Origin: Taibaiella sp. | Lineage (GTDB): Bacteria; Bacteroidota; Bacteroidia; Chitinophagales; Chitinophagaceae | Length of the DNA stretch: 64,000 nucleotides | Direction of reading: 5' to 3' | Assembly: GCA_013815385.1 (NCBI GenBank) | Contig: JACDGL010000004.1 | Span: forward strand, 1-64,000 | Shown here: positions 31,851 to 35,948 of the stretch, piece by piece | Position numbering within the stretch: position 1 is the stretch's first letter | Layout: every line of letters starts with the position of its first letter | Program-made: the position numbers and the translations under genes | The notes under the pieces: generated by a model | Database searches by the model: none | Seen by the model: the letters and a program-made list of their open reading frames with translations, nothing else | Told to the model about the DNA's origin: nothing

Positions 31851-34055
31851 TTATCCTAGCAGCTTTTCTATAGCTGTATCATATGCGTTTTTCCAATCGC
31901 TTGTATAACCCCACTTTTCGTCGTCGATCACTATTTCCGCACTTGCAGTTACTACACCCAGCTTAGTAAACGGTGTATGTTGTAGTTCTGCTTCAAACAA
32001 AGCCTGGATATTAGGGTTAATGCTAACGATCACACGGCTTTGTTTTTCACCAAACAGGTAGGCATCCTTCCGGATGTTGTTATCTGTAGTTATGTGAAAG
32101 CCAAAGTTATTGACCATAGCGCTCTCCAGCAGGCAGGTAAATAAACCGCCCTCTGATATATCATGCGCAGAAATAACAAGCATATTGCTGATCACCTTGG
32201 CAACCGCACGTTGCACACCATACTCTTCATTTAGCTCAAATTCAGGTGCCGGGCTATGGGTCACACCCTGTATATGGTGTAGGTATTCAGAACAGTTAAT
32301 ATCGTTGCTGTTAGTGCCTATCACGTATATCAGGTCACCTGCGTTTTTGAATGATAAGCTCATCTTGGCATCCAGTCTATCCAGCACGCCCACCATGCCT
32401 ATAGTAGGGGTGGGGTATACAGGCCCATCTTCGCTCTGGTTATAAAAGCTCACATTACCACCGGTAACAGGCGTGTCAAATTTAATGCAGGCCTCGCCCA
32501 TCCCTTTTATGGCATTTACAAACTGGTAGTATACTTCAGGATTATACGGATTGCCAAAGTTCAGGCAGTTGGTAATTGCTACAGGGGTACCACCACTGCA
32601 AACTATATTGCGTGCAGCCTCGCTTACTGCTATCATGGCGCCTTTGTATGGGTTGGCAAATACATAGCGGCTGTTACAGTCGGTAGTAACAGACAATGCT
32701 TTCTCCGCCCCGTGTATGCGTATTACAGCAGCATCGCTTGGCTCATTGGTGTGTGTATTGCCTGTACCCACCATCGAATCGTACTGTTCGTAAACCCAGC
32801 GTTTTGATGCTATATTAGGAAGCTGCACCAGCTGGTAGGCTATTTCTTTAAGGTCGTTAGGCACAGCTATAGAACCCGCATCAAAAGCATTTATCTGCTG
32901 CATGTATGCTGGTTCTTTGTATTCCCGGTCATATATAGGGGCGCCACCACCGAGTACCATACTCTCAGCAGGCACGTCTGCTACCAGCGCTCCGTTCATA
33001 TAGTACTTCAGGTTCAGGTCTTTGGTTACCTCTCCTATCTGTACGCAATGGATATCCCATTTATCAAATACCTTCTGTACCGCAGCATCCTGCCCTTTTT
33101 TCACCACTATCAGCATACGCTCCTGGCTTTCGCTCAGCAGCATTTCCCATGGTTTCATGTTTGCCTGGCGGGTAGGTACTTTATCAAGGTGAATGATCAT
33201 CCCATGTTCACCTTTTGCGCTCATTTCGCTGGTAGAGCAGGTGATACCTGCCGCTCCCATGTCCTGCATACCTATAATAACACCTGTCCTTATTGCTTCA
33301 AGGCAGGCTTCAAGTAATTTTTTCTCTTCAAACGGGTCACCTACCTGTACCGATGGCAGTTGCTCAGCGCTGTTTTCGCTGATGTCGGCAGAGGCAAATG
33401 ACGCACCACCTATTCCATCCTTCCCCGTAGAGGCGCCTACTATAAATACAGGATTGCCCTCGCCATGCGATGTTGCCGATACCGTATCACCTACACGTAC
33501 CACACCCACGCTCATTGCATTCACCAACGGATTGGTTTGGTAGCAGTTTTCAAAATATACCTCGCCGGCTACAGTAGGTACACCAAAGCAGTTTCCATAA
33601 TGGCCTATCCCCTTCACCACGCCTTTCACCAACCACTTGGTTTTCGGGTTATCCAGCTTACCAAACCGCAGCGAATTAAGCGATGCTATTGGCATAGCGC
33701 CCATTGTAAAAATATCGCGATGTATGCCCCCTACCCCGGTTGCCGCTCCCTGGAAAGGCTCTATTGCAGAGGGGTGGTTATGTGACTCTATTTTAAATAC
33801 ACAACCCCAGCCGTCGCCTATATCTACGAGTCCCGCATTTTCTTCTCCAGCTTTTACCAGCAGCTTAGCGCCATCACGGGGCAGGGTCTTGAGCCACTTT
33901 ATTGAATTTTTATAGCTGCAGTGCTCGCTCCACATAACCGAATACATGGCTGTTTCAGTAAAATTGGGGGTACGGCCAAGTACTTCTTTTATTTTTTCAA
34001 ATTCTTCTTCGCGAAGGCCCAGCTTAACGGCTTGTTCCAATGTTGCTGACTGCAT
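31851..34055 (-). CDS. purL: Phosphoribosylformylglycinamidine synthase, PurL subunit
   Basis: PurL converts FGAR to FGAM in purine synthesis using ammonia from PurQ. The 734 aa are the small bacterial form with SEHCSYKNS, ESHNHPSAIEPFQGAATGVGG and DMGAAGITCS, and repeated AIRS-like halves. The formylglycinamide-site segment GGNVSFYNQSE is present. It therefore needs separate purQ and purS, which are not in this window. Two overlapping -7 candidates lie 37-52 bp upstream. Confidence 0.96.
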   Translation of the reverse strand: MQSATLEQAVKLGLREEEFEKIKEVLGRTPNFTETAMYSVMWSEHCSYKNSIKWLKTLPRDGAKLLVKAGEENAGLVDIGDGWGCVFKIESHNHPSAIEPFQGAATGVGGIHRDIFTMGAMPIASLNSLRFGKLDNPKTKWLVKGVVKGIGHYGNCFGVPTVAGEVYFENCYQTNPLVNAMSVGVVRVGDTVSATSHGEGNPVFIVGASTGKDGIGGASFASADISENSAEQLPSVQVGDPFEEKKLLEACLEAIRTGVIIGMQDMGAAGITCSTSEMSAKGEHGMIIHLDKVPTRQANMKPWEMLLSESQERMLIVVKKGQDAAVQKVFDKWDIHCVQIGEVTKDLNLKYYMNGALVADVPAESMVLGGGAPIYDREYKEPAYMQQINAFDAGSIAVPNDLKEIAYQLVQLPNIASKRWVYEQYDSMVGTGNTHTNEPSDAAVIRIHGAEKALSVTTDCNSRYVFANPYKGAMIAVSEAARNIVCSGGTPVAITNCLNFGNPYNPEVYYQFVNAIKGMGEACIKFDTPVTGGNVSFYNQSEDGPVYPTPTIGMVGVLDRLDAKMSLSFKNAGDLIYVIGTNSNDINCSEYLHHIQGVTHSPAPEFELNEEYGVQRAVAKVISNMLVISAHDISEGGLFTCLLESAMVNNFGFHITTDNNIRKDAYLFGEKQSRVIVSINPNIQALFEAELQHTPFTKLGVVTASAEIVIDDEKWGYTSDWKNAYDTAIEKLLG

Positions 34056-34216: not shown

Positions 34217-34260
34217 CATACCTCTATAACTGCTGTATCATACCCTTATAACTGTAGTAC
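34217..34260. repeat. Two tandem 22-bp units
   Basis: CATACC(T/C).TATAACTG.(T/A)GTA repeats at 34217-34238 and 34239-34260, with a few changes and a CATA start of a third copy. It is in a non-coding spacer; function unknown. Confidence 0.5.
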
Positions 34261-34380
34261 CATAAAGAACAGATTTGCACAGCATACCCCCCCAATAGTA
34301 TCTTGCTTCTTAACCCAGGGTATTGGGTTGCAGTTCTTTGAAATATTGTCTGTTACCTTGTTAGGAAAGCATCAGTTTAT

Positions 34381-34490
34381 GCAAACCCTGCATTCCGAAA
34401 AGGTTAATCCGAACGGAAAAATTAACCCTGATGGAAGTAAAATTAACCTAAAATGGAAGTAAAACGGCGAAGAATTAACCTTTTTCGGCA
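34381..34490. repeat. IS21-end-like repeat cluster (orphan)
   Basis: From TGCATTCCGAAAAGG at about 34390 the spacer carries ATTAACC three times (34421, 34442, 34474), the inverse GGTTAAT at 34402, and TGGAAGTAAAA twice exactly 22 bp apart (34432 and 34454). The pattern of 22-bp spaced short repeats starting TG...ATTCCGA is like the IS21-type end at the left of this window. No transposase gene is next to it, so it may be a relic. Confidence 0.4.
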
Positions 34491-34700
34491 CTAAATTACC
34501 ATATTTTTAAAATTAATAACAGCCATAGGCAGTGTATCTGGCGTATACTATCCACAAAAAGGTAAAGAACAGCAACATTTTCCGACAGCACCCCATCGGG
34601 GCTACTGGTTTTTTGAATTGTTGCATTTAAATCGTCCCAGTCGAGTCTCTGCTTCAGGACTCGGCTGCTCGCGCTGAATACAACAAACCAACTCAAATAA

Positions 34701-34732
34701 AAATCCCGGAAGCATTTTAGCTACCGGGATTT
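34701..34732 (-). terminator. Terminator of porV
   Basis: AAATCCCGG and CCGGGATTT enclose a 14-nt loop; the minus strand continues TTTTTATTTG. It lies 23 bp past the porV stop. Confidence 0.85.
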
Positions 34733-34754: not shown

Positions 34755-35948
34755 TTATTCTGTACCCGCATCACTTGGTGCCTTTTCGAACTTATCAAAC
34801 TCGAATAGCAGGCTAAAACGAAGGGTATTAGACAGCGGATTTCTGGTAACGCCTGAACCGGATGGTATAAGGTAAGAGAAGTTAAGTCCAAAAACATTGT
34901 ATTTAACGCCAAGGCCCGTAGTAAAATACTGGCGGTTACCGTTATCAGGATTTTCATAAAAATAACCTGCACGGAATGCGATCGTATTCTGGTACCAGTA
35001 TTCTGCACCTATTGATACATCAATTTGCTTCACAGTACCGCTAAAACCACCTGGGGCATCGCCAAATGAGCTGAATACGCCGGCTACCACTCCCTTATCA
35101 GGATAAGCTACATTCCCGTTTGCATCAGTTTGCGGAGAAGGTACAAGTAGTTTATTAACGTCCAGCGCAAAGGTCAGTTTATTGTATGCATCCAGTTGTG
35201 TTGTATAAGCGGCTCCTAAACCCAGATTAATAGGTATGAAATCTTTTCGCAGAGAGCTATAAGATATTTTAGAACCAAGGTTGCTGATCACCGCGCCCAG
35301 GCTTAATGTGTTTTTACGAAACTCGTCTATCTCTTTAGTTTTGGCATAATAAAAACCAAGATCGGCTGCAAAGGCATTGCCTGGCTTATAGTCGGCCTGT
35401 CCGCTGGCGCCCGCCGCTATATCAGAATGTATGTACCGCAGGCTTAAGCCGGCAGATAAGTAAGTGGATAGCTTACGGGAATAACCTACATCAAATGAAT
35501 ATTCTCTTGGCAGCCCGGTACCTAATGATTGTGCATTAATATCTGTATAGCTTATGTTACCTAAAGAGAAATAACGCATAGAGGCACTTATTGCCTGGTC
35601 GCCATTGGTGCCAAATTTTGCATACCCCGCCAGGTAAGCCAGGAATATATCAGGTACCAGGTCTTTAAGCCATGGCGTATACGTAAGGGATACACCATAG
35701 TTTTTTTCCGCAAAGGGAAGCTTGGCAACATTCCAGTATTGGGCATTAGCATCTGGAGATACTGCTATACCGGCATCACCCATCGCGCCTGCGCGCGCAT
35801 CAGGAGATATGCGAAGAAAAGGAACCGCTGTTGTAACAGGTGTATTAGTACCGTTAAGATTGGTCTTAGTGGTGGTTTGGGCAAAAGAGGGGGAGGCAGA
35901 AAGACCTAACATCAGGCCAAAACCTACGAAAGCAATGCGTTTAGGCAT
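34755..35948 (-). CDS. porV: Type IX secretion outer-membrane protein PorV (LptO)
   Basis: PorV is an FadL-like 14-stranded outer-membrane barrel that carries cargo from the Sov/SprA translocon to the sortase PorU. The 397 aa have a signal peptide ending near SFAQ, then the family start with FLRISPDARAGAMGDAGIAVSPDANAQYWN. The rest is a pattern of amphipathic strands. It is directly downstream of porU? In this window porU lies at 36.0-39.8 kb and is transcribed in the same direction, 96 bp before porV, so both belong to one cluster with gldJ divergent. This is the conserved Bacteroidota arrangement. Confidence 0.94.
   Translation of the reverse strand: MPKRIAFVGFGLMLGLSASPSFAQTTTKTNLNGTNTPVTTAVPFLRISPDARAGAMGDAGIAVSPDANAQYWNVAKLPFAEKNYGVSLTYTPWLKDLVPDIFLAYLAGYAKFGTNGDQAISASMRYFSLGNISYTDINAQSLGTGLPREYSFDVGYSRKLSTYLSAGLSLRYIHSDIAAGASGQADYKPGNAFAADLGFYYAKTKEIDEFRKNTLSLGAVISNLGSKISYSSLRKDFIPINLGLGAAYTTQLDAYNKLTFALDVNKLLVPSPQTDANGNVAYPDKGVVAGVFSSFGDAPGGFSGTVKQIDVSIGAEYWYQNTIAFRAGYFYENPDNGNRQYFTTGLGVKYNVFGLNFSYLIPSGSGVTRNPLSNTLRFSLLFEFDKFEKAPSDAGTE

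Follow-up and report, generated by a model that had tools for sequence, protein, structure and literature searches.

A dispersed repeat between purL and porV that may be a lineage-specific regulatory leader in Taibaiella sp.

The repeat block between purL and porV in Taibaiella sp. is one of 27 copies of a modular sequence found in the same genome, and on balance this sequence appears to be a regulatory leader, specific to the lineage and dispersed through the genome, that a putative DNA-binding protein would bind. The window, i.e. the whole stretch of DNA that was analyzed, is 64,000 nucleotides in length. The full unit spans positions ~34225–34590 and begins upstream of the block start given in the initial annotation. 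The features of the unit and its surroundings are as follows.

34225–34268, plus strand: two 22-bp direct repeats (TATAACTGCTGTATCATACCCT / TATAACTGTAGTACCATAAAGA) immediately 5′ of the promoter, read from the sequence
34274–34306, plus strand: promoter-like sequence, TTTGC (34274–34278), 20 nt, TATCTTGC (34299–34306), from the sequence and a pattern script
34311–34330, plus strand: small stem-loop TAACCCAGGGTATTGGGTTG between promoter and boxA, listed as terminator-like
34333–34348, plus strand: rRNA-type boxA GTTCTTTGAAATATTG, the same motif being present in rRNA operons of two relatives
34389–34590, plus strand: type A site array, from copy alignment and constraint analysis
34639–34666, plus strand: separate hairpin repeat AGTCGAGTCTCTGCTTCAGGACTCGGCT, from genome search and pattern search
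34701–34732, no strand assigned: 13-bp inverted repeat, 92% complementary, from the repeat listing
31851–34055, minus strand: purL, the upstream neighbour, divergent from the element (ORF list and Pfam)
34755–35948, minus strand: porV, the downstream neighbour, facing the element (ORF list; Pfam PorV)

The type A array of the window starts with TGCATTCCGAAAAGG at position 34389, as read from the window sequence. ATTAACC is at positions 34421, 34442 and 34474, TGGAAGTAAAA at 34432 and 34454, and the 12-mer ATGGAAGTAAAA at 34431 and 34453. The repeats annotated initially are therefore present, but their spacing is not uniformly 21–22 bp; it is 21 and 32 bp for ATTAACC and 22 bp for TGGAAGTAAAA. 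The array consists of GGAAGTAAA and TT(A/T)ACCTTTTT motifs in both orientations, with the invariant TTACCATATTT at 34496–34506 and CTATCCACAAAAAGGTAAAGA at 34548–34568. The absence of an open reading frame after the block holds as far as porV. The inverted repeat at 34701–34732 is probably the transcription terminator of porV on the minus strand, as its position and T-run indicate. The window copy points at the 3′ end of porV and is divergent to purL; its target may be purL, or it may have none.

A search of the genome (39 contigs, 3.25 Mb) with positions 34381–34700 gives 35 rows, i.e. 25 with the array, eight with the hairpin alone and two short ones that led to the divergent copies L039 and L040. 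The 24 array rows other than the window copy show 77%–88% identity to it. A profile search of the genome (E-value up to 1) gives 29 rows, which are 25 main copies and the two divergent ones (E-value 1.9e-7 or better) and two fragments beside known copies. Since the array recurs 27 times, the block is more than a chance arrangement of short repeats. Homology between the copies extends over at least 250 bp, and their outer flanks are mostly unrelated, some of them carrying other shared repeat families. This homology within mostly unrelated flanks suggests that the module was copied about the genome. The check on multi-copy status proposed in the initial annotation thus came out positive, and the single-copy state which it held to count against its reading was not found. 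Only one of the 25 main copies overlaps a listed open reading frame of at least 90 aa (a 91-aa frame, L027).

Array copies were not found in the sampled relatives. Blastn against 39 genomes, in which the Taibaiella genome itself is included and is the only member of its genus, gives a single other match of 25 nt (G033). A sequence profile run against 244 genomes of the family (own genome included), drawn from a larger group than the blastn set and under more stringent filtering in which weak matches are lost, gives one other match of 94 nt (E-value 3e-4, G220), which by eye was judged to be due to chance. An exact 21-mer of the array has one match each in the genome contig and viral contig collections; the viral match lies in a listed open reading frame and the genome match looks coding by eye. 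No array match is present in plasmid and phage collections. These collection scans (21-mer, plasmid, phage and the viral patterns given below) are of collections that may omit records of the same or a very near genome. The type A family thus appears lineage-specific within the genomes searched.

The hairpin at 34639–34666 is a repeat family separate from the array. A stem-loop downstream of the block had been annotated at 34629–34658; the structure exists at the slightly different coordinates and belongs to this independent family. The hairpin sequence AGCCGAGTCTCTGCTTCAGGACTCGGCT (up to three mismatches) is found at eight places, i.e. in the window and on contigs C3, C5, C23, C24, C28 and C32, with one further partial place at C3:106689, and is not found in 194 other genomes of the family (up to three mismatches). 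Some copies differ at both bases of the outermost pair (AGCC..GGCT versus TGCC..GGCA). Another dispersed repeat, ~198 bp long, occurs in tandem upstream of the array in L021, where it begins near CGTCATTGCGAGGAGGC and ends near GGGCAAGCAAAAAAGTAAAGAACA; related stretches are found in L015, L017, L022, L026 and L029–L031.

A further repeated sequence, starting with TAAGAGCGGCAAAACG, is found at three contig ends (L024 at the end of C35, L027 at the start of C28 and L088 at the end of C32). It cuts the arrays of L024 and L027 at the right end, within a base or two of one point. The shared cut point suggests that an insertion element may target the right end of the type A array in a site-specific manner.

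The order promoter, boxA, array is constant across the copies. The predicted Bacteroidota-type promoter upstream of the array has the form TTTGG or TTTGC, 20 nt, TATATTGC or similar. A pattern script, tuned on these same copies, matches it in 23 of the 27, and the spacing is 20 nt in 21 of the 23 as printed, or in 22 of 23 when counted to TAT (L010 has 19). Four copies are without a recognized promoter. In 20 of 27 copies TGTGGATATnTTTATTTGG, with up to two mismatches, precedes the promoter. Copy L010 also has a near-identical pair of direct repeats with 21-bp spacing, and a stem-loop resembling the one at 34311–34330 is seen by eye only in L010, L032 and L033. In L028 the promoter is ~120 nt before boxA. 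An 8-bp repeat, AGCTAATY, is present upstream of the core in many copies; at least one AGCTAAT is found in 20 of the 27 but not in the window copy.

BoxA is detected in 25 of the 27 copies (23 by script, L011 and L027 by eye) and is missing in L012 and L013. The sequence TTCTTTGAMATATTG (up to one mismatch) occurs at 22 places in the genome, 21 at type A copies and one inside an open reading frame, and the reversed control sequence at one. The short form TCTTTGA(A/C)A is not rare, with eight occurrences in 464 kb of this genome and nine in 400 kb of the relative G022. Two of the three 16S loci examined in relatives display the motif: the 16S leaders of G004 and G022 have GTTCTTTGAAAG..TTGG, and the sequence 3′ of 16S in G022 has GTTCTTTGACATATTG. 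The script recognized no 16S start string and no boxA at the third locus (L112). By eye the rRNA promoters of G004 and G022 have the same TTTGG..TA..TTTGC layout as the promoter of the element. A search for 16S in the genome of the window gave no match, and the same search missed five of 14 control genomes.

The array core aligns without gaps over 144 columns in the 25 main copies. Parsimony on a neighbour-joining tree of these copies gives 272 changes, and 73 columns are unchanged, compared with 21.8 expected under a uniform rate (variance-to-mean ratio 3.8). The longest unchanged block is 15 nt (P = 0.0014). The unchanged blocks are AATGGAAGTA, ACCTTTT, TTACCATATTT and TATCCACAAAAAGGT. The sites are direct repeats at 10–11 and 22 bp, are also inverted, and are spread over 105–180 bp. 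Fixed spacing of conserved sites, as in a multi-site operator, is found in type A with the exception of L039 and L040. In these two divergent copies the motifs are kept with changed spacing, and 11-bp tandems of the GGTAGTAAAAT/GGAAGTAAAA type are present. In L040 the long motif is inverted, which points to recognition of DNA rather than RNA.

A downstream open reading frame of at least 90 aa is present at 23 of the 25 main copies. With gene directions taken from a simple ORF caller, 18 of the 23 are co-directional with the array and five are opposed, the window copy being one of the five (P = 0.011). The downstream products belong to Pfam families such as DUF520 (yajQ-like), succinyl-CoA ligase-type ATP-grasp, ETF, aromatic amino-acid lyase, M1 peptidase, glycosyltransferase, PaaA_PaaC and porin, among others, and have no obvious common function.

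Placement before housekeeping genes, the constant module order, the near-fixed spacing and the co-direction argue for a cis-regulatory leader. The upstream Bacteroidota-type promoter would start a non-coding transcript, and the rRNA-type boxA near its 5′ end would probably recruit the Nus complex. The transcript would then cross the array of DNA sites in both orientations, and these are most likely bound in phase by a putative DNA-binding protein. At most loci the array ends before a co-directional gene, and the expression of that gene would be set by the array-bound protein together with read-through from the promoter of the element. Many of the genes seem by eye to own a promoter between the array and the start codon, thus the promoter of the element may be secondary. 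Against the leader, five of the 23 type A copies face an opposed gene, and homology over 250 bp fits a mobile repeat equally well. Further points against it are the lack of an obvious common function downstream of type A, the frequency of the short boxA form, the copies without promoter or boxA, the type C leaders without boxA, the scores of the RNA consensus folds, and a second gap between type C sites that is conserved above background.

An origin as a mobile element is rather unlikely but is the most probable of the alternatives. Here the copies would be an old MITE-like or mobile-promoter family. The element would be non-autonomous, with TGTGGATA...TATCCACA-type ends and an array that once served a now lost transposase as its recognition region; it would have spread by copying and would now be decaying or locally co-opted. 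Such an origin would account for the long homology between flanks that share nothing but other repeat families. Mu and Tn7-like ends, too, typically have rigid multi-site arrays. Nested composites are present, since other repeat sequence is inserted between promoter and array in L015, L017, L022 and L024. Among the individual copies, a perfect 13-bp inverted repeat bounds the unit of L040 from promoter to array; in L010 such a repeat pairs the left end with an array-internal site, and imperfect TG...CA-like ends are seen by eye. However, a search for exact 13-mer inverted repeats (−400 to +200, all 27 copies; imperfect ones were judged by eye only) finds pairs at unit ends only in L040; those in L010, L028, L032 and L033 involve internal sites. 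No terminal inverted repeat is common to the 25 main copies, and in about 16 of the 25, by eye, conservation continues ~30 nt beyond TATCCACA and stops at a TTTACCTTTT-like end. Target-site duplications are not seen by eye in the flanks, the unit ends being ill defined. A Pfam scan of 30 flanking proteins shows no transposase; six have no family and one, beside L012, matches the phage Terminase_5 domain. A full-length insertion sequence with the same ends was not found near the copies, in an assembly of 39 contigs that may lose multicopy insertion sequences. Invariant blocks among freely varying ones are unlike uniform decay, and the direction bias of the downstream genes also speaks against this origin.

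The initial annotation had likened the block to an IS21 end at the left edge of the window. This likeness does not stand, as bases 98–1219 encode a tyrosine integrase with Pfam matches to Phage_int_SAM_5, Arm-DNA-bind_5 and, below the cut-off, Phage_integrase. An IS21 gene pair is not seen by eye among the open reading frames of the first 8 kb, where the Pfam scan covers ORF 98–1219 only. The integrase is near the contig start and its catalytic domain, being below the Pfam cut-off, may be cut short. Three options had been offered for the block; of these, the family of structured repeats is the closest, since the repeat is multi-copy and confined to its own genome as searched, and neither a solo insertion sequence end nor a non-autonomous element is supported by the copy ends, flanks and 30 flanking proteins inspected.

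An RNA element that would act on the downstream gene, either as a small RNA or as a structured leader headed by boxA, is improbable. The promoter and boxA lie 5′ of the array, long complementary stretches are present within it, and the consensus folds below shuffled columns with z-scores of −4.2 for the plus strand and −8.4 for the minus strand. The pairs of the folds are however mostly invariant or broken, and for this reason the array sites are read as probable DNA sites. The variable base of the main helix (TTWACC...GGTWAA) shows no covariation, as 15 of 25 copies are matched (12 + 3) compared with 13.2 expected from the margins. In the plus-strand fold the 8-pair main helix is without a double change, and only one of 13 pairs has one, in a single sequence; in the minus-strand fold one of 23 pairs has a double change. 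There is no Rfam match (14 loci at gathering scores; three loci at E-values up to 5). A structured RNA was rejected as compensatory changes are almost absent and Rfam is silent, though the fold z-scores are negative. A small-RNA gene with its own terminator was likewise rejected; an intrinsic terminator follows the array in one of 25 copies and in one of 117 control stretches. The inverted long motif of L040 is also contrary to an RNA element.

A site for chromosome organisation or DnaA titration is very improbable. The DnaA-box-like TATCCACA is at both unit ends: all 25 main copies have it in their longest invariant block, and it recurs inverted at the promoter edge (exact in 14 of 27, the longer motif within two mismatches in 20 of 27). 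But the usual spelling of the array boxes is CTATCCACA (23 of 26 exact-type hits; three read TTATCCACA), and there is no such box near dnaA (L121).

Two small genes elsewhere in the genome (L122 at C28:127.6k and L123 at C3:24.0k) encode a DnaA C-terminal DNA-binding domain. By eye their neighbours resemble Mu-like prophage genes of the MuB, Gam and repressor types.

The leader reading may extend beyond type A. The promoter motif TGTGGATATnTTTATTTGG (up to two mismatches) is found at 47 places in the genome, and its reversed control at none. By inspection, the 47 comprise 22 at type A copies or at an edge fragment (L142), 22 before arrays of three other types and three without an array. Two promoter places share one array in L147. 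The three other array types are the following.

Type B: GTAGGGTGATGATGGGG-like, three loci
Type C: CAAACTTCCGTTT...AACGGAAGTTTGCC...AATGGAAGTTTGCGGAAGTTTGA, 14 loci (L190–L198, L200, L203, L092, L035 and L147)
Type D: ACATTATGCGACATTATG-like, four loci without type C

The association of promoter and array was also viewed from the side of the array. In a non-random sample of 502 kb (the window, two 19-kb stretches originally chosen for other reasons, and 20 more of 20 kb each), the type C tandem is found by its own pattern five times at four loci, and all four have the promoter motif upstream, 160–200 bp before the nearest tandem. The promoter motif (up to three mismatches) has six hits in the same 502 kb, of which four are before type C, one is before type D (L189) and one is before neither as far as checked. 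In 400 kb of the relative G022 neither the type C tandem nor the promoter motif is found, and both patterns are likewise without a match in the viral contigs.

The spacing of type C is also nearly rigid. Site 1 is 79–82 bp before the tandem in 15 of 16 cases (74 in L195), and site 2 is 51–54 bp from it in all 14 cases where the script found the site; none was found in L191. Pairwise identity was calculated on fixed columns for 13 loci (L191 excluded, one tandem per locus) and is 0.91 for the tandem, 0.48 for site 2 and 0.39 for site 1, the site offsets varying by a few bases. The first gap and both flanks are at background (0.26–0.27) and the second gap, at 0.45, is above it. By eye the type C leaders inspected are without boxA.

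The genes 3′ of type C and D arrays, with names inferred from Pfam, include those for alanine dehydrogenase, an FAD/NAD oxidoreductase, an SRP54-type GTPase (ftsY or ffh), uppS, frr, a double-GTPase protein (der), a pyruvate:ferredoxin oxidoreductase subunit, yidC, aconitase, a polA-type exonuclease (type D), a DNA polymerase III clamp-loader subunit (dnaX-like) and ctaA/COX15. At the loci with arrays other than type A, 17 of 21 are co-directional with the next gene (P = 0.007), or 18 of 22 when L189 is added; L201, L092, L143 and L146 are opposed. For type A and the other types pooled, before addition of L189, 35 of 44 are co-directional (P = 1e-4). Orthologs of two of 29 query genes (purL and a clamp-loader gene) are present in 400 kb of G022 (E-value 1e-15), and by eye neither is preceded by the motif or an array.

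It is tentatively suggested that one lineage has placed a shared promoter and one of at least four rigid arrays (A, B, C and D) before dozens of genes, core housekeeping genes included, with an rRNA-type boxA as an addition in type A. Such a set would be a new layer of global control, private to the lineage and made of copied leaders, and its array variants might track regulators of changed specificity. If the leader reading holds, housekeeping genes (ribosome recycling, cell wall, secretion, clamp loader) have been rewired in one Bacteroidota lineage by the spread of a cis-regulatory module, and an rRNA anti-termination signal has been borrowed for use outside rRNA. It would also be a natural case of a genome-wide regulon built by the copying of control regions, with many replicate loci.

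Several known systems are comparable. The rRNA operon leaders of the relatives have the same boxA core and promoter layout; unlike these leaders, no rRNA or other Rfam RNA follows the element at the loci scanned, and the 27 copies are mostly before protein genes. BoxA also precedes CRISPR arrays. OmpR/PhoB-type winged-helix response regulators use tandem-site operators, and the direct repeats at 10–11 and 22 bp, i.e. one or two helical turns, are similar to these. Here, however, the sites are also inverted and are spread over 105–180 bp, and the likeness is no more than a lead. Solo insertion sequence or MITE ends are similar in having dispersed homologous copies with several repeats resembling binding sites, but the transposase partner, common terminal repeats and target duplications were not found here.

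The listings of the literature search show no boxA-bearing dispersed repeat. BrickBuilt, a MITE of Porphyromonas gingivalis, is described as always intergenic, of restricted host range and with 19 copies in one genome (PMC4596501). It has a modular leader, short 23-nt direct repeats and a tail; promoter activity is reported and it is proposed to be mobile-promoter-like (PMC4596501). Both families are thus from Bacteroidota, host-restricted, intergenic, modular and promoter-bearing, with 19 copies in BrickBuilt and 27 here. BrickBuilt differs in its tandem 23-mers of variable number, in the terminal inverted repeats of one copy (perfect, 12 bp) and in target duplications shown by empty sites (PMC4596501), whereas the Taibaiella element has an array of fixed length, a boxA and a fixed promoter, and common terminal repeats or duplications were not seen. 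Among the literature examined, BrickBuilt is the nearest published relative in kind.
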